The notes beneath the pieces were generated by a model. The model ran no database searches, had not been told where the DNA came from, and worked only from the letters and a program-made list of their open reading frames with translations. From NCBI GenBank assembly GCA_944324135.1, contig CALUVE010000010.1:1-64000 (forward strand): a DNA stretch of 64,000 nucleotides, given 5' to 3'. Positions within the stretch are counted from its first letter, which is position 1. The number at the start of each line of letters is the position of its first letter. Origin of the DNA: Candidatus Gastranaerophilales bacterium. GTDB taxonomy: Bacteria > Cyanobacteriota > Vampirovibrionia > Gastranaerophilales > Gastranaerophilaceae. A program made the position numbers and the translations under genes. Of this stretch, positions 17,662 to 63,316 are shown in pieces.

Positions 17662-18336
17662 TTACAATTTAAACCTTGTAGAAAAATTCAGCTGAGAATG
17701 GGGTGGTTTTACTGATTCAGAGAACATAACATGACTTGCGCCGACATTAAAATTAACCCTGTCATCATTAAAAGGTTTGATACTAAAAACAAATTCACTT
17801 TTTTTATTTTTTTCAAGAAAATTTGTTGAATAAATATTTTGGATAGACAAATGGTCATTCAATTTATACTCCGGAGAAAAAGCCAGCGTTCCCTGTCCGC
17901 GCTGCTGCCACGAGGCAAAATTTTCATTGTTAAATGAGGTGTCAACGGATAGCTTATTTTTTTGGTATCTGAAGAAAATAGTTTCCGATTGCTTATAATC
18001 ATCAGGTTTTACTGACGCATCATATTTTAGTCCGTAAGAAAAATCACCGGCAGTCTTTTCTTTTTCAAAAGACATCGCGTGAGGGTCATACGGATTTTTG
18101 TTAATATAATCATGAATATTCTGCGCATCAATCTGTCCGGAATTTTGTTCAGCCTCCAAAGCAACCTCATTTTCAACCTGCTCGCGTGCAGTGATATTAG
18201 TAACAAGTTTGGTATGTTCCAGCACAACTACATCAACATTTTCAGCCTGTTGTCCATACGCAGGCATAAAAAATGTTAATCCGGCATATATGAGCAAAAC
18301 TGCTGCGCTCAATATTTTTCTTCCAGCTATTCCCAT
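17662..18336 (-). CDS. Small exported protein, possibly outer-membrane beta-barrel
   Basis: I place the start at 18336. From there the protein opens with a clear signal peptide (basic GIAGRK, hydrophobic SAAVLLIYAGLTFF, then PAYGQ and probable cleavage). The mature part, about 195 residues, alternates polar and hydrophobic residues near the C-terminus and ends in NFSTRFKL, like a small beta-barrel. An upstream in-frame ATG (18420) would place a repeat element inside the gene, which argues against it. No ribosome site is seen; a TATTAT box lies 6 bases before the ATG, so the mRNA is probably leaderless. Function unknown. Confidence 0.7.
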   Translation of the reverse strand: MGIAGRKILSAAVLLIYAGLTFFMPAYGQQAENVDVVVLEHTKLVTNITAREQVENEVALEAEQNSGQIDAQNIHDYINKNPYDPHAMSFEKEKTAGDFSYGLKYDASVKPDDYKQSETIFFRYQKNKLSVDTSFNNENFASWQQRGQGTLAFSPEYKLNDHLSIQNIYSTNFLEKNKKSEFVFSIKPFNDDRVNFNVGASHVMFSESVKPPHSQLNFSTRFKL

Positions 18337-18342
18337 AATCTT

Positions 18343-18371
18343 ATAATATAAAAAAATTCCAACTTTAGCAA
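18343..18371 (-). promoter_or_regulatory. Leaderless-type promoter of the exported-protein gene
   Basis: On the minus strand TTGCTA (18371-18366), 17 bases, TATTAT (18348-18343), 6 bases, then the ATG at 18336. There is no room for a 5' leader. Confidence 0.55.
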
Positions 18372-31269: not shown

Positions 31270-32334
31270 TTACAAAAACTTAAAGATTTGTTCCAAATAT
31301 TCCAGCGCGCAAGCCTCTGAAGTGTATTTATTTATAGTATCAAAACTATTGCCGCGCAAAATTTTCAGCTCATCTGAACTCATATTTTTAATACTCAATA
31401 AAGTTTGTCTTATATCTTCAGCTGTGGGGTAAACAAGAAATCCGTTTTCACCGTCTTTAATAATCCCGTCTATCCCGTCGCCTTTTGTCCCGACAGTAAT
31501 ACAGCCTGCTGCCATTGCCTCAAGATAAACCATGCCAAAAGTTTCGCCGACACTCGGGAGCACAAAAACATCTGCCTCGCCCATTTTCTCCATAACTTCA
31601 TCATGAGAAAGAGTACCTGTAAATTTGACAGAGGAATCAATTTTCTGTAGTTCTCTGCGTCCGGCACCATCACCTATCACGGTCAGTTCAAAACCCTCAA
31701 GACCTTTCAAGGCATAAATAAGTTTATCAATATTTTTCCGCTTTTTAAAATTAGCACATGTCAAAACTTTCAAAGTTTTACCTAACTTTTTCTCTCTCAC
31801 CGGTTTGATTAAAGAAGAGTCAATCCCGGACGGTGCGACAAAAGTTTTTTCTCTGAAATGCGGATATATTTTCAAAAGTTTTTCTCTCAATACATAAGAC
31901 CTGCAGGCTATCAGGGGAGCAAAATACAGTGCCTTTTCCAATCTTGCCCTGAAATAAAAACTGTATTGAGGTTTTGTCAAGACTTCTATATCTGAATTAT
32001 GAATCCCTGCAACAAACGGGATACCCAGCTTGTCTGCGAACAAAATTCCTGACGGCATATGCGCAATAATCAAATCTGTTTCAATCTCCGGCAGCTTATT
32101 TTCAATATTAAACATAAACGGAGTAAAATAATTCACATTAAAAACATTGCCATACTGCCCTGTTTGATAAAACGGCTTTTTGCGTATAAAAGAATTCAAA
32201 AGGAAATTTGGCTTAATAACAGAGACTTCATGTCCTGCCGCCTCCCAGCTTTTTACAAAATTATAAAGCGTTCTCGGTGTAGTTCTCTCTTTTTCTGATA
32301 CAGGATACAAATCAGTTATAAACAAAATTCTCAT
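31270..32334 (-). CDS. GT4-family glycosyltransferase
   Basis: This 354-residue GT-B enzyme has an N-terminal Rossmann half and a C-terminal UDP-sugar half with VLTCANFKKRKNIDKLI, VIGDGAGRREL and the E-x7-E signature in ETFGMVYLEAMAAG. Acceptor and donor cannot be inferred. No ribosome site is present: TATAAT, preceded by TGA (an extended -10), ends 6 bases before the ATG, so translation probably starts on a leaderless mRNA. It diverges from the GH57 gene. Confidence 0.88.
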   Translation of the reverse strand: MRILFITDLYPVSEKERTTPRTLYNFVKSWEAAGHEVSVIKPNFLLNSFIRKKPFYQTGQYGNVFNVNYFTPFMFNIENKLPEIETDLIIAHMPSGILFADKLGIPFVAGIHNSDIEVLTKPQYSFYFRARLEKALYFAPLIACRSYVLREKLLKIYPHFREKTFVAPSGIDSSLIKPVREKKLGKTLKVLTCANFKKRKNIDKLIYALKGLEGFELTVIGDGAGRRELQKIDSSVKFTGTLSHDEVMEKMGEADVFVLPSVGETFGMVYLEAMAAGCITVGTKGDGIDGIIKDGENGFLVYPTAEDIRQTLLSIKNMSSDELKILRGNSFDTINKYTSEACALEYLEQIFKFL

Positions 32335-32340
32335 AAAAAG

Positions 32341-32349
32341 ATTATATCA
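32341..32349 (-). promoter_or_regulatory. Extended -10 promoter placing the start at the GT4 ATG
   Basis: The minus strand reads TGATATAAT, then CTTTTT, then ATG. The expected transcription start coincides with the start codon. Confidence 0.6.
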
Positions 32350-40406: not shown

Positions 40407-42068
40407 CTACTCACCAGAGATAGTAATAACAAACTCCGTACCAACCCCGACTTCGCTATTTACCTTAATTTCCCCGTGATGTTTTTCAATTATTTTTGAA
40501 CAAATTGCAAGTCCGAGCCCTGTGCCGACCCCTACACCTTTTGTAGTATAGCCGGCTGTAAATATCTTGGGAAGCTCGTTTTCAGGAATTCCTTTGCCGG
40601 TATCTTTTATTTTTACGATTAATTTATTATCCTGAAAATCCGTACTGATTGTTATTTTCCCTCTTCCGTCTATTGCCTGGCACGCATTTATCAATATGTT
40701 TGTAAAAACCTGATTAAGCATATTCGGGTAGCATTTTATAATAGGGATTTGCCCGTAAAGTTTGACTATATCTATTCTATTCTTGGTTTCGTGGCGTATC
40801 AAATTCAGGGTCAAATCAAGTTCCTTGTTTATATCAGCCTCTTGCAATTCTGCTTCATCCAGACGGACGAATTTTTTTAAAGAGACGACAATATTACTTA
40901 TTCTCTGAATGGCATCGGCATCAATTTCATTGATTTCTTTGAATATATCTGCGATTTCAGGGTCTTGAATCTGCGGAATAAACTTTGCCATTATTCCGTT
41001 ATTTGATTTTATTGAAGCTACCGGGGTATTGATTTCGTGGGCGACTCCTGCAACAAGCTGACCGAGAGAGGCCATTTTTTCAGAATTTATAAGCTGAATT
41101 TGAGTTTCTTTCAATTCTTTTAAAGTTTTTTGGAGTTCTTCTACCGTTCTAATGTTCTTCTGATAAAGCTCTGCTCTTATAATTGCGCTGCCAAGCTGGG
41201 AGGATACAGCCTCAAGAATTTCAATTTCATCAGGGATTTCTCTAATCTGTCTGGTCAGCAAAACTATGATGCCTGTAACGTTTTGCATATTATGAACAGG
41301 AACAATCACACGCATAACCGGTTGTTTCAGAGGTGGGGCATCAAGATATTCAATCAAACAATTTGCAACCGAAATTTCCCGTGAATCAATAGTTTTCAGG
41401 GTATTCACATCAAAATTAACTATCTGATTTTTTGTTGCATTGGAAGTATCTCCGAAAGATTCTTCTATCTTAAAGCCGGCATCAACACTTGAAGCATAAT
41501 AAGCGCTGTATGCGCCGAACATCATTGACAATTCCGAAAGGGTAGATTGAAGAATTGTGGAGATATCTATTGACTCTCTGATAATGTTGGAAACTTTGTT
41601 TATGAGTGCGATACGGATAGCTTGAGACTGCGCATTTTTTTTAATTTTCTGGAGTTCTTCATTCTCAAAATTCAAAGTCTCAAGATTTTTATTCAGGAGA
41701 TTTAATCTTCTGTTGAGTGTTTCATTTTGAACCTGCTCTGTCACATCGGAAAAAATCATAATCGTATAACGACTTCTTTTGATAGCAGTCAGGTCAAAAT
41801 ATTTTGTCTCTGTAGGAGAAAACTGATAGGATATTCTGGAGAAAAAATCTTCTTTTGAATTAATCGCGTTAAAAATCGGGGTATAGTTTTCTATCCCGTC
41901 ATTATACAGAGGACAAATTTCAAAATTTGTATTGTGGGAAAATTTTTTGATGTCAGTAAAATTCGGGAAAACTCTCTCGAAAGAATGGTTTTTATAAACG
42001 ACCTTATATTTGTTATCCGTGACTATTACAGCATCCCTAAACTGATTAAAAAAATCAAACTTTCTCAT
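40407..42068 (-). CDS. PAS-GAF sensor histidine kinase (soluble)
   Basis: The 553-residue protein has a PAS domain (about 8-115), a short coiled coil (118-150), a GAF domain (about 155-305) and HisKA with H344 in LVAGVAHEINTPV. HATPase follows, with an N-box INACQAI, a G1 box DTGKGIPE and a G2 box VGTGLGLAICSK. No membrane segment, so it senses an intracellular signal. No response regulator gene is adjacent (orphan). A TATAAT box ends 6 bases before the ATG and no ribosome site is seen, indicating a leaderless mRNA. Confidence 0.92.
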   Translation of the reverse strand: MRKFDFFNQFRDAVIVTDNKYKVVYKNHSFERVFPNFTDIKKFSHNTNFEICPLYNDGIENYTPIFNAINSKEDFFSRISYQFSPTETKYFDLTAIKRSRYTIMIFSDVTEQVQNETLNRRLNLLNKNLETLNFENEELQKIKKNAQSQAIRIALINKVSNIIRESIDISTILQSTLSELSMMFGAYSAYYASSVDAGFKIEESFGDTSNATKNQIVNFDVNTLKTIDSREISVANCLIEYLDAPPLKQPVMRVIVPVHNMQNVTGIIVLLTRQIREIPDEIEILEAVSSQLGSAIIRAELYQKNIRTVEELQKTLKELKETQIQLINSEKMASLGQLVAGVAHEINTPVASIKSNNGIMAKFIPQIQDPEIADIFKEINEIDADAIQRISNIVVSLKKFVRLDEAELQEADINKELDLTLNLIRHETKNRIDIVKLYGQIPIIKCYPNMLNQVFTNILINACQAIDGRGKITISTDFQDNKLIVKIKDTGKGIPENELPKIFTAGYTTKGVGVGTGLGLAICSKIIEKHHGEIKVNSEVGVGTEFVITISGE

Positions 42069-42074
42069 AACAAT

Positions 42075-42103
42075 ATTATATAGGAAACTGATATTTGCAG
42101 CAA
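42075..42103 (-). promoter_or_regulatory. Leaderless-type promoter of the PAS-GAF kinase gene
   Basis: On the minus strand TTGCTG (42103-42098), 17 bases, TATAAT (42080-42075), ATTGTT, then ATG. Confidence 0.65.
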
Positions 42104-47615: not shown

Positions 47616-48302
47616 TTACTTACATTTGGTTTTGCCGTTCCATTCCAAATCAGTACAGTGTAAATAATCAAGATTTTCGTTATACAACGCCCACGCCGTA
47701 CATCCGTAACCTTTTTCCGTCAAACAATACTGTACAAAATAATCTTCCCCTTGAGTTTCCGGAGCCCCGGCAGGAATTATCTTGTTATCATAAACAAAAA
47801 AGTAATGGAAATCGTCCCCGAGTTTGTTCGGCCCCTTGAATCCGTTCAAATCAACATAAATCTGCGCATCGGATTCGCCTGCTTTTGTCATATTAAACAT
47901 TATAAGAGTCCCGTCAGGAAGTATTGCTTTTGCTCTGTCACCCAATTCATTCCAGTTTGCGTATTCTGTGCCCTTTACTGTCAGGTATGGCTGGTCAGGG
48001 AAACACCCTTTATCATGCCCGCAAATTTTAGTGAATCTCATATATTTAGAGAATTTATCAAGCAAAACAAGTTCCCCGCCGGTTTCCACCCCGCGCAAAG
48101 CACCCCAGAATTTTGTAGGGCCTTCCTCCATCATAGTGTAATTATATGCAGTTTGAATAGTAGAATATACTTTCTTCAAACGGGTAACCGTCTCTTTTTC
48201 TTTATAGCTGGTAATCAATGCCGGCAGAGTCATCGCCGCAACGACGCCAATTATCCCAAGGGTTATTAATACTTCCGCTAAACTGAATCCGTGCTTTTTC
48301 AT
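47616..48302 (-). CDS. Type IV pilin-like prepilin (pseudopilin)
   Basis: The 228-residue protein begins MKKHGFSLAEVLITLGII with a class III signal peptide: cleavage by prepilin peptidase is expected between Gly5 and Phe6, then Glu10 (E5 of the mature protein) and a hydrophobic helix ending in VVAAMTLPALI. The C-terminal domain has several Cys (CGHDKGC, YGCTA, LHCTD) and a GspH/pilin-like globular part. Many copies of this type occur in Gastranaerophilales-like genomes; a surface pilus or secretion role is likely. An extended -10 (TGTTATAAT) ends 7 bases before the ATG and no ribosome site is present. Confidence 0.88.
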   Translation of the reverse strand: MKKHGFSLAEVLITLGIIGVVAAMTLPALITSYKEKETVTRLKKVYSTIQTAYNYTMMEEGPTKFWGALRGVETGGELVLLDKFSKYMRFTKICGHDKGCFPDQPYLTVKGTEYANWNELGDRAKAILPDGTLIMFNMTKAGESDAQIYVDLNGFKGPNKLGDDFHYFFVYDNKIIPAGAPETQGEDYFVQYCLTEKGYGCTAWALYNENLDYLHCTDLEWNGKTKCK

Positions 48303-48309
48303 ATTTTTT

Positions 48310-48318
48310 ATTATAACA
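48310..48318 (-). promoter_or_regulatory. Extended -10 of the pilin-like gene
   Basis: The minus strand reads TGTTATAAT, 7 bases, then ATG. This fits a leaderless or almost leaderless transcript. Confidence 0.5.
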
Positions 48319-48568: not shown

Positions 48569-49675
48569 TTATGATTCTACATATTCTCTCAAACGTTTGC
48601 TTCTGTTCGGGTGGCGTAATTTTCTCAAAGCTTTTGCCTCGATTTGTCTGATACGTTCACGGGTTACACCGAACAATTGTCCAACTTCTTCAAGAGTTCT
48701 CTGGCGTCCGTCATCCATACCGAAACGGAGTCTCAATACATCGCGTTCTCTCGGAGAGAGTGTGCAGAGAACTTCTGCCAAATCTTCTCTCAAAAGTTCT
48801 GAAGCTACTGTTTTAATAGGTGCATCTGCCTCTTTGTCCTCAATAAAATCACCAAGACGGGAATCTTCTTCTTTTCCGATTGGAGTTTCCAAAGAGAGAG
48901 GTTCTTGCGCAATTTTGATAATTTCACGAAGTTTCGGAATAGAAACATTCATTTCAATTGCGAGTTCATCTTCGGTAGGTTTTCTTGAAAGTTCCTGAGC
49001 CAGACGGCGGGTAACTTTTTTCAATTTGTTAATTGTTTCTACCATGTGAACAGGAATACGGATTGTTCTTGCCTGATCAGCAATTGCTCTTGTGATTGCC
49101 TGTCTAATCCACCAAGTTGCATAAGTTGAGAATTTGAAACCTCTTTCGTGGTCAAATTTTTCAGCAGCACGTATTAAACCGAGGTTCCCTTCCTGTATAA
49201 GGTCTAAGAACAACATTCCGCGTCCGACGTATTTTTTAGCGATACTTACTACAAGACGCAAGTTTGCCTGTACAAGTTTTCTTTTAGCAATTGCACCCGG
49301 AGTGCCCCCTTGCAATATTTTTCTTGCAAGTTCAATTTCTTCGTTTGCTGACAACAATTTGATTCTTCCGATTTCTCTTAAATACAATCTAACCGGATCA
49401 TCTACCGCTATTCCTTTTGGAAGTTCAAAATCACTGTCATCATTTTCTTCTTCACTTGAATCATTCATCATATAGATATCATCCAGATTCATTTTTCCGC
49501 CCATTTTTTCGGTAACGATATCTTCGATGTTATCAGTACTGATGTCCATATTCATATAATTTACGCCGTCATTTTCAGAGCCTAATGCTCCATCCTCATC
49601 AATTTCGTGTAAATCCAGATTATCTTCATCTAAAATACTAACAATTGAGGAGTTGGGTTGTCTTTTTTTAGTCAT
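48569..49675 (-). CDS. rpoD: RNA polymerase primary sigma factor (sigma-70 type)
   Basis: The 368-residue protein has region 1.2 ([13 protein letters not shown]), region 2 with [21 protein letters not shown] and [14 protein letters not shown], region 3 ([14 protein letters not shown]) and region 4 helix-turn-helix ([23 protein letters not shown]). The N-terminus is short and acidic. It directs transcription from TTGACA/TATAAT promoters like those seen in this window. Its start overlaps the dnaG stop by 8 bases: a dnaG-rpoD operon, as in many bacteria. Confidence 0.96.
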
Positions 49676-51557
49676 TCATTTTCTCCGATTTATTTCTGTT
49701 ATTTATTTTATCTCTTAGCTGCATCTGAAGTTTAAGGGCTTCTATTTCATCATCATTTGCGCTTTTGTACAAATTTCTTAACTGTTCGCGTTCCTTTTCG
49801 TGTTGAATTTGATTAATTTTTCGTTTAGTTTCTTCGATTGCTGTTTGCATGTCATGTTCCGAAAGATGGCTGTACATTTCCGATGTTGTTATTAAATCTG
49901 TTAAAACCTTTTGGGCTTCCGGCTGTTGAAGAAATTCTGTATATAAATTTTCAATCAATTCTTTTACATTATTTACGCTACATAAAAATTTGTCAATTGT
50001 AGATTTTACAATTATTAACGTTTCGTCATCAAGCTGCATTTCTCCAATCATTGTATTTACCTGTTGCAGATTGAAACGATTGTCTGCTACAAAAAAAATG
50101 CTCAATAAATTTTTTTGCGCTTTTTCGAGAATTGATGAATTTTTTGTTACAATCTTAACAATATTTTCCTCCGGCCGGCTCGTCGAAATGATTGATTTTT
50201 GCACCTCGCGCATAAGCGCATTCTCGTCTATATCAAGGGCATGGGCAGCCATTTTGACATATTCGGCACGTACAATCCCGTTTTTTATTTCCTGTAAAAC
50301 AGGTATAATTTTCTTAACAAGATTTGTTTTATCAAGTGCGTTTTTAATCTCGTGTTTGCTCTTCAGAATATTATTCATCTGAAAATCAATCAAGAGCGGT
50401 GCGTGCTGCATATAGGCTTTGTAGCTTTCAGCGCCGGCGGAGCGGATAAATTCATCCGGATCTTTACCCTCAGGAGGTGAAATTACACGGATTTCGCAGG
50501 AATATTTGTCCTCTGAAGATGTTGTATATGCTTCATCAAACTGTTTTATGTCTCCCAGCCCCTCAAAGGCCTCTCTGATAATTTCAGCACCGCGCTCGGT
50601 AGCTTTTTGGCCGGCTGAATCCGTATCAAATGAAAGGTAAATTCTTCTTGATTTTGTATATCTTGATAAAAGTTTTACGTGGTCGGAGGTCAGGGCAGTT
50701 CCGCAGGCAGCAACACAGTTTTCTATCCCGTGAGCCTGAGCTGATATTACATCAAAGTATCCCTCCATCAAAACTACGCTGTCCTCTTCTTTTATCGCAT
50801 CTTTTGCAGTATATAATCCGTAAAGCAGCTTGCTTTTGTTATAAATTAAAGAGTCTGAAGAATTCAAATACTTTGGAGACTGTCCCTCTTCAACAGCTCT
50901 AGCTCCAAATGCAACATAGTCGCCGAATTCGTTCTGGATAGGAATAATAACACGGTTTCTGAATCTATCTATATATTTGTTGTCGCGGTCTTTCAATATC
51001 AGCCCTGCTTTTTCCAGAACTTCATCACTAAATTCACCTTTCAGGGCGTCATAAAGAGTTGTATAAGATTTCGGGGCAATCCCGAGGGTGAATTTTTTTA
51101 TTATATCTTCATTGATTCCTCGTCCGTTCAGATATTTCAAAACTTTTCCGGTTTCTGTGGAAACATCTTTCAGCAATCTTTTGTGGTAAAATTCTGCGGC
51201 TTTCTTGCAGGCTGATGTCATATGTTCTTTCAAATCCTTTGAAGAACCGCTTCTTTTGAAACTCGCAGGCATCTCGAGTCCGTATTTTTCCGCAAGTTCT
51301 TTTATCAAGTCCATAAACTCGATATTTTTTGTTTTCATGATAAAAGACAGCGCATCTCCACCCTCGCCGCAGCCAAAACATTTATAAATCCCGAGAGACG
51401 GATTTACAGAAAAGGACGGGGTCTTTTCTTTGTGAAAAGGACACAATCCCCAGTAGTGACCGCCGTTTTTCTTTAAAATAACCTGTTCCGATACGACTTC
51501 TACTATATCAAGACGGTCTTTTATCTGCGATATAAGTTCTTCCATTGTGTCAGCCAT
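49668..51557 (-). CDS. dnaG: DNA primase
   Basis: The 629-residue primase has an N-terminal zinc ribbon ([23 protein letters not shown]), a central domain, then TOPRIM with LMEGYFDVI (Glu) and SFDTDSAG (DxD). A C-terminal helicase-binding region follows. It makes RNA primers for replication. There is no ribosome site: the minus-strand promoter TTGCTT, 16 bases, TAAAAT, TTTATT, ATG places the start at the initiation codon. It is transcribed with rpoD. Confidence 0.96.
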
Positions 51558-51563
51558 AATAAA

Positions 51564-51591
51564 ATTTTAACATCAAATTTTTTTTAAGCAA
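51564..51591 (-). promoter_or_regulatory. Leaderless-type promoter of dnaG-rpoD
   Basis: TTGCTT (51591-51586), 16-base spacer, TAAAAT (51569-51564), six bases, ATG. The divergent kinase promoter lies at 51614-51641. Confidence 0.55.
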
Positions 51592-51613
51592 AGCATATTA
51601 CCATAATGGGTAA

Positions 51614-51641
51614 TTGTATATTGCCTTTTTATATATAAAAT
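51614..51641 (+). promoter_or_regulatory. Leaderless-type promoter of the receiver-kinase gene
   Basis: TTGTAT (51614-51619), 16 bases, TAAAAT (51636-51641), CTATAT, then ATG at 51648. No Shine-Dalgarno precedes it. Confidence 0.45.
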
Positions 51642-51647
51642 CTATAT

Positions 51648-52787
51648 ATGCTTTGGCAAACTAACAAAAATGAGGAGAATAATGTTCAGCAGCAGTTATT
51701 TAATAATAACCCTCTCAAGCTCTCCAAAATTCTTGTTATAGTAGAAGATGACAGGCAGATTTCATATTACAAATGCATCTTGCACAGTTTCAATGTCAGA
51801 TTTTGCAATATTAATAATATTAACACCGGTGCAAATACACTTTCATTACAGTCTGCAGAGGTATGCATTCTGTGCTGTGACAAAAAACTCAAGAGTTTTT
51901 ACAAACTTTTAAAATATATTAAAGCGCTCGAATCACAAAAAGTCCAAATTCCGCTGGTTATATTCATTGCTAAAAAACACGACGTAGCTCATATTGAACA
52001 CGCATACAAACACGGAGCTGATTTATATCTGACAAAACCATTCAACCGGAATATTTTGATAGCTGAAATTCACCACCTTATTGAACGAAAAGCTGATTAT
52101 CAAAACAGTATGGAGATGAAAGAATCTTTTCTTGCAATGGTCACGCACGACTTAAAAACGCCTGTAAACGCATCTATCCTCGCTTTCAATCTTTTGATGA
52201 ACAACGAAATCAGCGAAGAATCTGATAGACAGGAGATTATGTCCCAGATATTCAGTTCAGTAAAATATTCAAAACTTATGATAGATAATATCTTAACCCG
52301 TGCCAAAATTGAAAACGGCAAATTAGAAATTGTAAAACGCCCCCTCTGTTTTAAAAAACTTGTCAACAACTGCATAAGACAGGTCGAATTTTTATCAAAT
52401 GACAAACATCAAATGATTAATCTGCATTGTGATATTCCGGAAATACAGGTAATGGCAGATGAGATGGAGTTGTCGAGAGTAATTCTGAATCTTATGAGCA
52501 ACGCAATAGAATATGCGCCAGCCGGAACAATTATAGACATAAACCTTAATCAAAATGCTTCCGTAACAAGCTTTGCAATCACAAACACCGGCCCGGGTAT
52601 TAACCTCAAAAATCCCAATGATGTTTTTGACAAATATATTTCCTACGCTAAAAAACACAAAAAGGTAGGAACAGGACTCGGCTTGTTTGTTGCAAAAGAA
52701 ACCATTCTGGCGCACGGCGGAAGCATTAATGTCACAAGTTCCGCAAATAATTTCACAACCTTTCAATTTTCTATTCCGAATAATTAA
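51648..52787 (+). CDS. Hybrid protein: degenerate receiver fused to histidine kinase
   Basis: The 379-residue protein starts with a receiver-like domain (about 25-145) that keeps the acidic pair E33-D34-D35 and Lys130 (LTKPF). The phospho-acceptor strand reads EVCILCCDKK, with Cys76/Cys77 where Asp is expected and an Asp one residue later. HisKA (H167 in VTHDLKTPVN) and HATPase (NLMSNAIEYA, VGTGLGLFVAKE) follow. It is soluble, with no membrane helix, so the receiver may bind a ligand rather than accept phosphate. A 19-residue overlapping ORF with a strong GAGGAG site lies in another frame at 51682-51741. No cognate regulator is adjacent. Confidence 0.88.
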   Translation: MLWQTNKNEENNVQQQLFNNNPLKLSKILVIVEDDRQISYYKCILHSFNVRFCNINNINTGANTLSLQSAEVCILCCDKKLKSFYKLLKYIKALESQKVQIPLVIFIAKKHDVAHIEHAYKHGADLYLTKPFNRNILIAEIHHLIERKADYQNSMEMKESFLAMVTHDLKTPVNASILAFNLLMNNEISEESDRQEIMSQIFSSVKYSKLMIDNILTRAKIENGKLEIVKRPLCFKKLVNNCIRQVEFLSNDKHQMINLHCDIPEIQVMADEMELSRVILNLMSNAIEYAPAGTIIDINLNQNASVTSFAITNTGPGINLKNPNDVFDKYISYAKKHKKVGTGLGLFVAKETILAHGGSINVTSSANNFTTFQFSIPNN

Positions 52788-57379: not shown

Positions 57380-57385
57380 TATAAT
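57380..57385 (+). promoter_or_regulatory. -10 box of the DUF4127 gene (leaderless type)
   Basis: TATAAT, then GAAGAA, then ATG at 57392. A weak TTTGCC or TTGCCT sits near the -35 position. Confidence 0.5.
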
Positions 57386-57391
57386 GAAGAA

Positions 57392-58717
57392 ATGAAAATA
57401 GGATTTCTCCCGATAGACAACAGACCTGTGTGTTATACGCTTCCGGTACAAATTGCCAGATTAGACAGGAGCATAGAATTTTTTATACCGGAAAGAAAAC
57501 TCCTCGGTGACTTAACAATGCAGGCCGATATAAGCGGACTTTTCAAATGGCTGGAAAATCTACCGGAATGTGATGCCATCGTACTTTCGCTTGATACCAT
57601 TGCCTATGGCGGTCTAATACCGTCAAGACGTTCTCCTGAGACTTTTGAAGAAATTAAAGACAGGATAGAACGCCTGAAAGAAATTTGGGAAACCAAACAC
57701 GCAAAAATCTATGCTTTTTCAAGCATAATGCGCATTTCAAATAACAACATAAATGAAGAAGAAAAAGAGTATTGGGCAAGATGGGGGAAAAGAATTTTTG
57801 ACTATTCATATCAGACCCACAAGCTCGGCTGTGAAAGCTGTATTGCAAATATTATCCCCTCAGAAATTCTTGATGATTATATATCAACAAGAAAACGTAA
57901 TTTTGAGATAAATAAAATTTATCTTGAATGGCAAAAAGAAAGGCTTTTAGACACCCTTGTATTCTCAAAAGATGATTGTGCGGAATACGGGTTCAATGTA
58001 CAGGAGGCAAAAGCCCTTGAGGCACTCGGCGGATTTACCAAAACCGGAGCTGATGAAATCCCGCTCACTCTTCTTGCAAGAGCTATAAATAAACCTCTAA
58101 AAATCGCACCTGTCTTTTCAGCACCTGAAAGCCGGAATTTGATATCAAATTATGAAGATGTGCCGGTAGAAACTTCTGTCAAAGGTCAAATTGAACTTGC
58201 AGGATGTTCAGTTGCAGAAGTTGAGGAGGCTGATATTATTCTTTACGTGAATAATTTTGAACACAGACAGGGCGAAATTGTTATGGGAGTAGATACCAAA
58301 CCATTTGACGGCATCTGGGAAAAACCGGATAAGCCTTATATGATTGCTGATGTCCGATTTGCCAACGGAGCAGATAACGCATTTGTAGAACAGATAATAA
58401 AATCAGGACATGACAGGAATTTTTACGGATACTCCGGATGGAATACAACGGCAAACACTCTCGGGAGTCTGATTTGTGCGGGGAAAATACGATTCTGTGC
58501 CGAAGATTACAATGAAAATGCGTTCCAAGCGCTTGAAGCTATACGGCTGCTGGATGATTGGGCTTATCAAGCAAACACCCGCCAGATGAGGGATATAGAT
58601 TTAAAACATGCAATGTATGGTTATGAAGAACGTGTGAATAAATTCCTCGGAACAAATTTTGCACCTGAATATAAATTCCCTTGGAACAGACGATTTGAGG
58701 TAGAAGTAACGCTATGA
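57392..58717 (+). CDS. DUF4127 family protein
   Basis: The 441-residue protein opens with MKIGFLPIDNRPVCYTLP, then LDTIAYGGLIPSRRS and KIYAFSSIMRISNNN, hallmarks of DUF4127. The C-terminal half includes YGYSGWNTTANTLGS. The DNRP and YGG segments suggest an enzyme, but activity is unknown to me. No signal peptide. Its stop overlaps the mntP start by four bases (ATGA), so the two are translationally coupled. Confidence 0.88.
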   Translation: MKIGFLPIDNRPVCYTLPVQIARLDRSIEFFIPERKLLGDLTMQADISGLFKWLENLPECDAIVLSLDTIAYGGLIPSRRSPETFEEIKDRIERLKEIWETKHAKIYAFSSIMRISNNNINEEEKEYWARWGKRIFDYSYQTHKLGCESCIANIIPSEILDDYISTRKRNFEINKIYLEWQKERLLDTLVFSKDDCAEYGFNVQEAKALEALGGFTKTGADEIPLTLLARAINKPLKIAPVFSAPESRNLISNYEDVPVETSVKGQIELAGCSVAEVEEADIILYVNNFEHRQGEIVMGVDTKPFDGIWEKPDKPYMIADVRFANGADNAFVEQIIKSGHDRNFYGYSGWNTTANTLGSLICAGKIRFCAEDYNENAFQALEAIRLLDDWAYQANTRQMRDIDLKHAMYGYEERVNKFLGTNFAPEYKFPWNRRFEVEVTL

Positions 58718-61532: not shown

Positions 61533-61895
61533 ATGGAAATTTCAAATGTAAATTCAAACCCTTTTGTAACATCAGCAAAAGTTGAAGAAGACGACGAAAA
61601 AGAAGTAAAAGAAGAACAAACCGGCGAAGCTGCCGTTAAAAATCCGCTTGAAAAAGGCGAAACAGACAAAGCTGAATTTTCAAAATCATCTTCAGCACTT
61701 ACACAAGACGAAGTTCAAGATACAGTAGAGCGCTATATCAAAGACAAAATTGCCTCTGCACCGCCGGAAGTTGCAGCAAAACTTTCTCAATATCTTGCAA
61801 CTTTTGATGTAGCAAAATTCATCCGTGACAACGGCAATTTGTCAATTGCTGAACTCTACGCTGTCTTGTACAACAAAACAGCAGATTATGAATAA
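61533..61895 (+). CDS. Small acidic unknown protein, paralogue of the previous gene
   Basis: The 120-residue acidic protein shares the C-terminal pattern LTQDEVQDTVERYIKDK, KLSQYLATFDVAKFI, AVLYNKTAD with the gene just upstream, and has its own Glu/Lys-rich N-terminus. A good GAAAGGACGG site precedes it. A very strong terminator follows at 61921. No family recognised. Confidence 0.7.
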   Translation: MEISNVNSNPFVTSAKVEEDDEKEVKEEQTGEAAVKNPLEKGETDKAEFSKSSSALTQDEVQDTVERYIKDKIASAPPEVAAKLSQYLATFDVAKFIRDNGNLSIAELYAVLYNKTADYE

Positions 61896-61920
61896 TAATA
61901 TTCATTAAAAAAACAATTTA

Positions 61921-61990
61921 AAAAGAAATGTTATAGAAAAAATCCAAACATGGATATAATCAGATAAAATTTTCTATAGCATTTCTTTTT
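61921..61990 (+). terminator. Long intrinsic terminator
   Basis: A 20-bp stem with one G-U (61921-61940 with 61970-61989) encloses a loop that contains its own small hairpin (ATCCA / TGGAT), followed by T. Confidence 0.85.
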
Positions 61991-62036: not shown

Positions 62037-62065
62037 TTGACAGCCCCACGTGCTTTTAATATAAT
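62037..62065 (+). promoter_or_regulatory. Perfect promoter placing the start at the hisS ATG
   Basis: TTGACA (62037-62042), 17 bases, TATAAT (62060-62065), then TTCCGT and ATG at 62072. Both hexamers and the spacer are consensus. Confidence 0.85.
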
Positions 62066-62071
62066 TTCCGT

Positions 62072-63316
62072 ATGGCTAAAATAATAAACGTAATAAAGGG
62101 AACAAAAGATATACTGCCTCAGGATATAGAGCAGTGGCACATATTAGAGAGCAAAGCTCTGGAAATTTTTTCAAAATACGGATACAAAGAAATCAGAACC
62201 CCGATATTTGAGGCAACAGAACTCTTTGCACGCGGTGTCGGCGACACAACTGATATAGTAAACAAAGAAATGTACACTTTTGAAAAAAGTGACCGTTCTC
62301 TGACTCTCCGTCCTGAAAATACTGCCGGAGTTGTCCGTTCATATATAGAAAACGGAATGTCACGTCTTCCGTCACCTGTCAAACTCTGGTACAAAGGTCC
62401 GATGTTCCGTTATGAGCGTCCGCAAGCCGGCAGACAACGCCAATTTCATCAGGTTGGGGTTGAAATGTTCGGGATTAAAAATGCAACAGCAGATGCCGAA
62501 GTCATTCTGCTTGCCGTTAATTACCTGAAATCACTCGGATTGAATAATCTTGAAGTGGAACTGAATTCTCTTGGCTGCCCGAGCTGTCGCGAAGCTTACA
62601 AGGCAAAAATTAAAGAAGTTCTAAAACCTGAATTTGACAATCTTTGCGAAGATTGCCAGAACCGTTATGAAAAAAATCCGCTCAGACTTCTGGATTGCAA
62701 AGTTGAAAGCTGCAAAGCAATATTCGAAAAACCTGAGATCCAAAAAGTCATCCAATCAGATTTTATCTGTGAAGAATGCTCCGCACACTTTGAAGAATTA
62801 AAAACATACCTTGACAAACTCAATGTAAAATATACAGTGAACAAGCTCCTTGTAAGGGGTTTAGACTACTACAACCGTACGGTATTTGAAATTAAATCAA
62901 ACAACCTCGGTTCACAAAACGCAGTCTGCGGCGGCGGCAGATACGACAGTCTTGTAAGAAACCTTGGCGGCGATGATACTCCTGCTGTCGGCTGGGCAAT
63001 GGGTATGGAAAGATTAAATTCCTTGCTGCCTGTACCGGAGGCTGAGCTTTTGGACGGATATATTGTTTCAACATCTCCGGCTGATGCCTTTGAACTTGCA
63101 GAAGAATTGAGAGCAGAGGGATTTAAAGTAGAATTTGACTTAGCAAATAAAAAATTCACCAAACAACTTGAAAAAGCATCAAAATCAGCAAGATTTGCCC
63201 TGATTTTAGGAGAGGACGAAATCAAAGCAGGAAAAGTTTCTGTGAAAGATCTTGCAACAGGCGAGCAATCACTTTATGAAAGACAGCAGCTGCCTAAAAT
63301 CCTTGCACAGAGCTAA
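62072..63316 (+). CDS. hisS: Histidyl-tRNA synthetase
   Basis: The 414-residue class II synthetase has motif 2 FRYERPQAGRQRQFHQVGVE, LVRGLDYYNRTVFEI and GGGRYDSL (motif 3 region), and a C-terminal anticodon-binding domain. Four Cys in CEDCQNRYEKNPLRLLDC and CEECSAHF may bind zinc. There is no ribosome site, and the consensus promoter starts transcription at the ATG (leaderless). Confidence 0.96.
   Translation: MAKIINVIKGTKDILPQDIEQWHILESKALEIFSKYGYKEIRTPIFEATELFARGVGDTTDIVNKEMYTFEKSDRSLTLRPENTAGVVRSYIENGMSRLPSPVKLWYKGPMFRYERPQAGRQRQFHQVGVEMFGIKNATADAEVILLAVNYLKSLGLNNLEVELNSLGCPSCREAYKAKIKEVLKPEFDNLCEDCQNRYEKNPLRLLDCKVESCKAIFEKPEIQKVIQSDFICEECSAHFEELKTYLDKLNVKYTVNKLLVRGLDYYNRTVFEIKSNNLGSQNAVCGGGRYDSLVRNLGGDDTPAVGWAMGMERLNSLLPVPEAELLDGYIVSTSPADAFELAEELRAEGFKVEFDLANKKFTKQLEKASKSARFALILGEDEIKAGKVSVKDLATGEQSLYERQQLPKILAQS

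Follow-up and report, generated by a model that had tools for sequence, protein, structure and literature searches.

We predict that two modes of translation initiation coexist in the genome of a Candidatus Gastranaerophilales bacterium (assembly GCA_944324135.1; 1.82 Mb in 47 contigs, A+T 63%), an uncultured gut bacterium from an order placed in the Cyanobacteriota/Melainabacteria group in NCBI taxonomy. Beside a Shine-Dalgarno majority, a minority of genes, estimated at about 5-7% from start calls that are themselves approximate, very probably have leaderless mRNAs, made from sigma-70-type promoters whose transcription start falls on the A of the ATG.

A sequence-only reading of the window (the whole 64,000-nucleotide stretch of contig CALUVE010000010.1 analysed here) had listed eight genes with a -10 box just before the ATG and no ribosome-binding site, and had called leaderless mRNAs common in this genome. 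All eight sites are present, with six bases between box and ATG at seven of them and seven bases at 48302 (Table 1). The sequence evidence supports the mode itself; "common" overstates what appears to be a minority of genes. Two coexisting modes, as that reading proposed, are the best interpretation of a peak one base wide, Shine-Dalgarno sites missing exactly there, the preference for ATG and for T at -1, and a conserved geometry.

Table 1. Predicted promoter elements and starts of the eight window genes
Feature	Position	Strand	Support
hisS -35 box TTGACA	62037..62042	+	present in 81/81 upstream regions of hisS (window counted)
hisS -10 box TATAAT, 17 bases past the -35	62060..62065	+	exact in 78/81; spacer of 17 in 79/81
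hisS start codon ATG, with predicted transcription start (+1 = A)	62072..62074	+	ATG in 81/81; T at -1 in 81/81
hisS, histidine--tRNA ligase, predicted leaderless	62072..63316	+	TIGR00442, 486 bits
-10 TATAAT, 6 bases before DUF4127 gene (57392-58717)	57380..57385	+	-10 at 6-7 bases in 13/23 orthologues
-10 TAAAAT, 6 bases before histidine kinase gene (51648-52787)	51636..51641	+	sequence; weakest site
Extended -10 (TGT)TAAAAT, 6 bases before dnaG (49668-51557)	51564..51569	-	-10 at 6 bases in 8/26 orthologues
-10 TATAAT, 7 bases before type IV pilin-like gene (47616-48302)	48310..48315	-	sequence; PF07963 / TIGR02532
-10 TATAAT, 6 bases before histidine kinase gene (40407-42068)	42075..42080	-	6-7 bases in 16/24 orthologues
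Extended -10 (TGA)TATAAT, 6 bases before glycosyltransferase gene (31270-32334)	32341..32346	-	6-7 bases in 9/12 orthologues
-10-like TATTAT, 6 bases before ATG 18336 (gene 17662-18336, unknown family)	18343..18348	-	sequence; two relatives

The hisS promoter

The hisS gene of the window, an essential gene of protein synthesis, is preceded by TTGACA, 17 bases, TATAAT and TTCCGT, directly followed by the ATG, exactly the arrangement without a Shine-Dalgarno site that had been described for it. Residue 1 of the encoded HisRS pairs with residue 1 of the solved structure 1kmm, so the start is correct on protein grounds. We compared the locus with 80 hisS relatives from the order Gastranaerophilales (81 upstream regions with the window). 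These loci were retrieved by protein similarity alone and are therefore unselected for promoter; the nearest are 81-92% identical, and their labels are mostly Candidatus Gastranaerophilales or Melainabacteria. Promoter, spacing and ATG are kept in 80/80 relatives, while divergence has changed the upstream DNA and the greater part of the spacer. None of the 80 has a Shine-Dalgarno site before hisS, and no conserved element was found upstream of -36 across the 81 upstream regions.

Excess of -10 boxes six bases before the ATG

The sequence-only reading had suggested a genome-wide scan for an excess at this spacing. We ran the scan and found the excess: TATAAT-N6-ATG has 88 matches in the whole genome, against 13 for the reversed pattern. 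Gene-start statistics come from 40 genome stretches plus the window (862 kb), with 645 called gene starts, the calls being approximate. We counted TATAAT with at most one mismatch as a -10 match and at least four bases as a Shine-Dalgarno match. By these rules 37 genes have a -10 box at spacing 6, 8 at spacing 7, and 1-12 at each of the spacings 3-5 and 8-12. Exact TATAAT is found at spacing 6 in 15 of the 499 genes with free upstream space. GTG and TTG starts show no excess of TATAAT at spacing 6 in the 862 kb. Loose TANNNT counts over all ATGs were unusable, since coding background swamps the signal.

At 63% A+T, a genome will contain many TATAAT hexamers, some of which stand six bases before an ATG by chance; the background is about 20 TATAAT per spacing before any ATG in the 862 kb. 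The same count gives 46 at spacing 6, however, and called gene starts give 37 against about 5 at the other short spacings. The reversed and shifted controls are low, and the geometry recurs in all 80 hisS relatives from the order. Chance is refuted as a general explanation, and we give it next to no weight. Because the background at spacing 6 is nonzero, perhaps 4-6 of the 37 genes are there by chance, which may explain single sites such as 51648.

The first start caller overlooked several of the eight window starts, and a second, mixture model was added, with a flat spacing prior and the reversed motif as control. This model divides 646 genes into 465 with a Shine-Dalgarno signal, 127 with no signal and 54 led by a -10 box. 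The box lies at 6-7 bases in 31 of the 54, and the reversed motif gave none.

Shine-Dalgarno matches are found in 2 of the 37 spacing-6 genes, compared with 338/645 (52%) overall. Sorted by distance of the -10 box, the fraction with a Shine-Dalgarno site is 6% at 6 bases, 0/16 at 4-5 and 7-9 bases, and 62-69% from 13 bases on. A 16S rRNA, sought for its anti-Shine-Dalgarno tail, was not found in the assembly GCA_944324135.1.

Promoter make-up and proposed mechanism

The start codon is ATG in 36 of the 37 spacing-6 genes, and T stands at -1 in 32. A pyrimidine-purine (YR) pair is the usual site where bacterial transcription starts. TG is found one base before the -10 box in 19/37, against 52/367 for boxes at least 20 bases from the start, so many of the spacing-6 sites are extended -10 promoters. 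A -35 box is not general, as the 37 genes show only a mild enrichment of TTGACA-like hexamers at 16-18 bases, and several of the -10 boxes are imperfect.

A/U-rich regions without a Shine-Dalgarno site may serve some Bacteroidetes and cyanobacteria (Nakagawa 2017, PMC5397173), and the A+T-rich element, instead of being a promoter, could act in longer transcripts as a translational enhancer of this kind, e.g. one for ribosomal protein S1. We consider this very unlikely. TTGACA is kept 17 bases off at hisS, the TGn extension is enriched, the matched sequence is TATAAT and not generic A/U, and there is no conserved element upstream of -36 to act as an alternative hisS promoter.

The preferred reading is an ordinary sigma-70-type promoter, with a -10 TATAAT that is often TGn-extended or, for hisS, accompanied by a TTGACA -35, whose placement would set the RNA polymerase start on the A of the ATG. 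We infer RNA 5′ ends at this A, on mRNAs that would lack both a 5′ leader and a Shine-Dalgarno site. The 5′-terminal AUG would presumably be read by 70S ribosomes or by 30S with IF2, a route worked out in E. coli. The transcription start could be 1-3 bases off the A, and leadered transcripts could also arise from another promoter farther upstream.

Transcripts that began 1-5 bases before the ATG, or at either of two adjacent bases, would have very short leaders and be nearly leaderless. In bacteria the transcription start commonly shifts by one or two bases, and the minority at spacing 7 (the 8 genes above, and 5-6 orthologues in each of three gene families) would give a start one base off. 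The peak is at a single spacing, however, and both the T at -1 and the +1 A are nearly invariant; we regard very short leaders as possible and rather unlikely.

Genes with the predicted leaderless layout

Besides hisS and dnaG, the leaderless layout is found at dnaA, uvrB, prfA, mnmG, tsaD, rsmH, rsmI, purB, purD, alr, ispG, dxr, folP, mgtE and a gene for a DnaJ protein, with names inferred from Pfam families. Most of these examples are housekeeping genes. For many such starts the domain match opens within the first dozen residues, and for hisS, prfA, rsmH, ispG and others it opens near residue 1, which supports many of these start calls.

Conservation and predicted switching among orthologues

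Exact TATAAT is found at five of the eight window sites (62072, 32334, 42068, 57392 and 48302), and a -10 box with one mismatch at the other three (TAAAAT at 51557/dnaG and 51648, TATTAT at 18336). Orthologues were taken from other genera of the family, and the window genome is counted in each tally (kinase, DUF4127, glycosyltransferase, dnaG). Four window genes besides hisS have orthologues that partially keep spacing 6-7, from 8/26 (dnaG) to 9/12 (glycosyltransferase), and the geometry claimed at dnaG, 32334, 42068 and 57392 is thus backed by orthologues. The site claimed at 18336 exists, and its two best relatives (L242, L243) have TATAAT-6-ATG with the start a few codons off, which weakly supports the geometry. 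The site at 51648 also exists; the evidence for it is the sequence itself, and no orthologue of this kinase gene was found among 23 family genomes. The kinase gene and dnaG diverge from a 90-base gap (51557-51648), which would need two opposed leaderless promoters.

A Shine-Dalgarno site is often present instead where the ATG is farther from the -10 box or the gene lies within an operon. Several DUF4127 and kinase orthologues without the -10 box have such a site, and the dnaG orthologues other than the 8/26 have a displaced ATG or a Shine-Dalgarno site. The dnaG genes of three species (L156, L159, L160) have the same extended -10, with 16-18 bases rather than 6 between it and the ATG; the 10-12 added bases hold a GGTG/GGGTG-type site. 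In these species dnaG is a predicted natural switch between leaderless and Shine-Dalgarno initiation.

Distribution across the phylum

The extended pattern TGNTATAAT-N6-ATG has 15-38 matches per genome in nearly all genomes of the family, whereas the reversed control gives 0-4; at spacing 9 the TGNTATAAT pattern has 1-9. One genus of the family (g47) has only 7 matches of the extended pattern. The three genomes of the sister family f4 (G003, G009, G027) have 9-15 matches against 0-2 reversed. They also give 4-10 at spacing 9, so the excess in f4 is weak, and the hisS genes of this family are without the leaderless layout. The other families of the class, and about 70 genomes from the phylum's other classes, gave little or nothing above control.

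Among 30 hisS loci from outside the family, none has a -10 box at 6 bases and two have a possible one at 7. The promoter layout is therefore not common to the class. Given the family-wide excess, the little found elsewhere and the confinement of the hisS layout, the trait belongs mainly to Gastranaerophilaceae. We think it probable, if far from certain, that leaderless initiation is a fixed trait of this family, gained or kept on its branch, and that the sister families and photosynthetic cyanobacteria are without it. On this account a hisS-led core would be held leaderless by selection, and others such as dnaG would switch modes via small shifts of the ATG; with such switching, the evolution of initiation modes would be readable directly from orthologues.

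Relation to known leaderless systems

Many bacteria are known to have leaderless genes marked by a -10-like signal (Zheng et al. 2011, PMC3160421; Deinococcus-Thermus, PMC12340547). Predictions by GeneMarkS-2 put leaderless use at 21.6% of bacterial species, and Cyanobacteria are cited as an unclear group (PMC9581028). The genes described here resemble the TA-like signal genes of Zheng et al. (2011), a minority with TANNNT about 12 bases before the start and without a Shine-Dalgarno site, and the extended -10 has a parallel in the TG extension reported in Lactococcus (PMC3160421). Whereas many Cyanobacteria had neither mode in that survey of 953 bacterial genomes (PMC3160421), the sister lineage studied here appears to have both.

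In Deinococcus-Thermus a -10 box adjoining the ORF was experimentally shown to be a leaderless promoter (PMC12340547, 2025), and we see the same layout here in sequence. The share there is about 30% of ORFs (PMC12340547), compared with about 5-7% of genes here. Unlike those bacteria, this genome combines an A+T-rich, often extended -10 TATAAT with almost exclusive use of ATG at such starts and a pronounced Shine-Dalgarno majority. Mycobacterium tuberculosis likewise has two modes in one genome, with leaderless transcription starting at the start codon (PMC3898074); its starts were mapped by RNA-seq, whereas ours are predicted, and GTG starts are without excess here.

We found no report that joins leaderless with Melainabacteria or Gastranaerophil- in the main texts of the open-access papers searched, in agreement with the sequence-only reading, which was aware of no description in this lineage. 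The phenomenon is known elsewhere, the lineage appears new for it, and the comparative evidence is unusually clean. Initiation in Cyanobacteria and their relatives had been classed as unclear or as neither Shine-Dalgarno nor leaderless. With a leaderless set conserved in these common gut bacteria, there would be a family-sized case for tracing gain and loss gene by gene. Gene callers that seek only Shine-Dalgarno sites could misplace such starts. Some antibiotics act differently on leaderless translation (PMC9581028), which bears on the drug response of these gut bacteria.

Other sequence features around hisS

A palindrome around the hisS -35 box (AATTGACAATT) was considered and rejected, as its left half is unconserved among relatives. 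ATT directly follows the -35 box in about 85% of the relatives (L023-L102; TTGACAATT), and the window itself differs at these positions (62043-62045). The other TTGACA promoters of this genome show no clear preference for ATT. Between the gene at 61533-61895 and hisS lies an inverted repeat (61920-61990) with 21-base arms that are 95% complementary and 29 bases between them; it is perhaps the terminator of the upstream gene.
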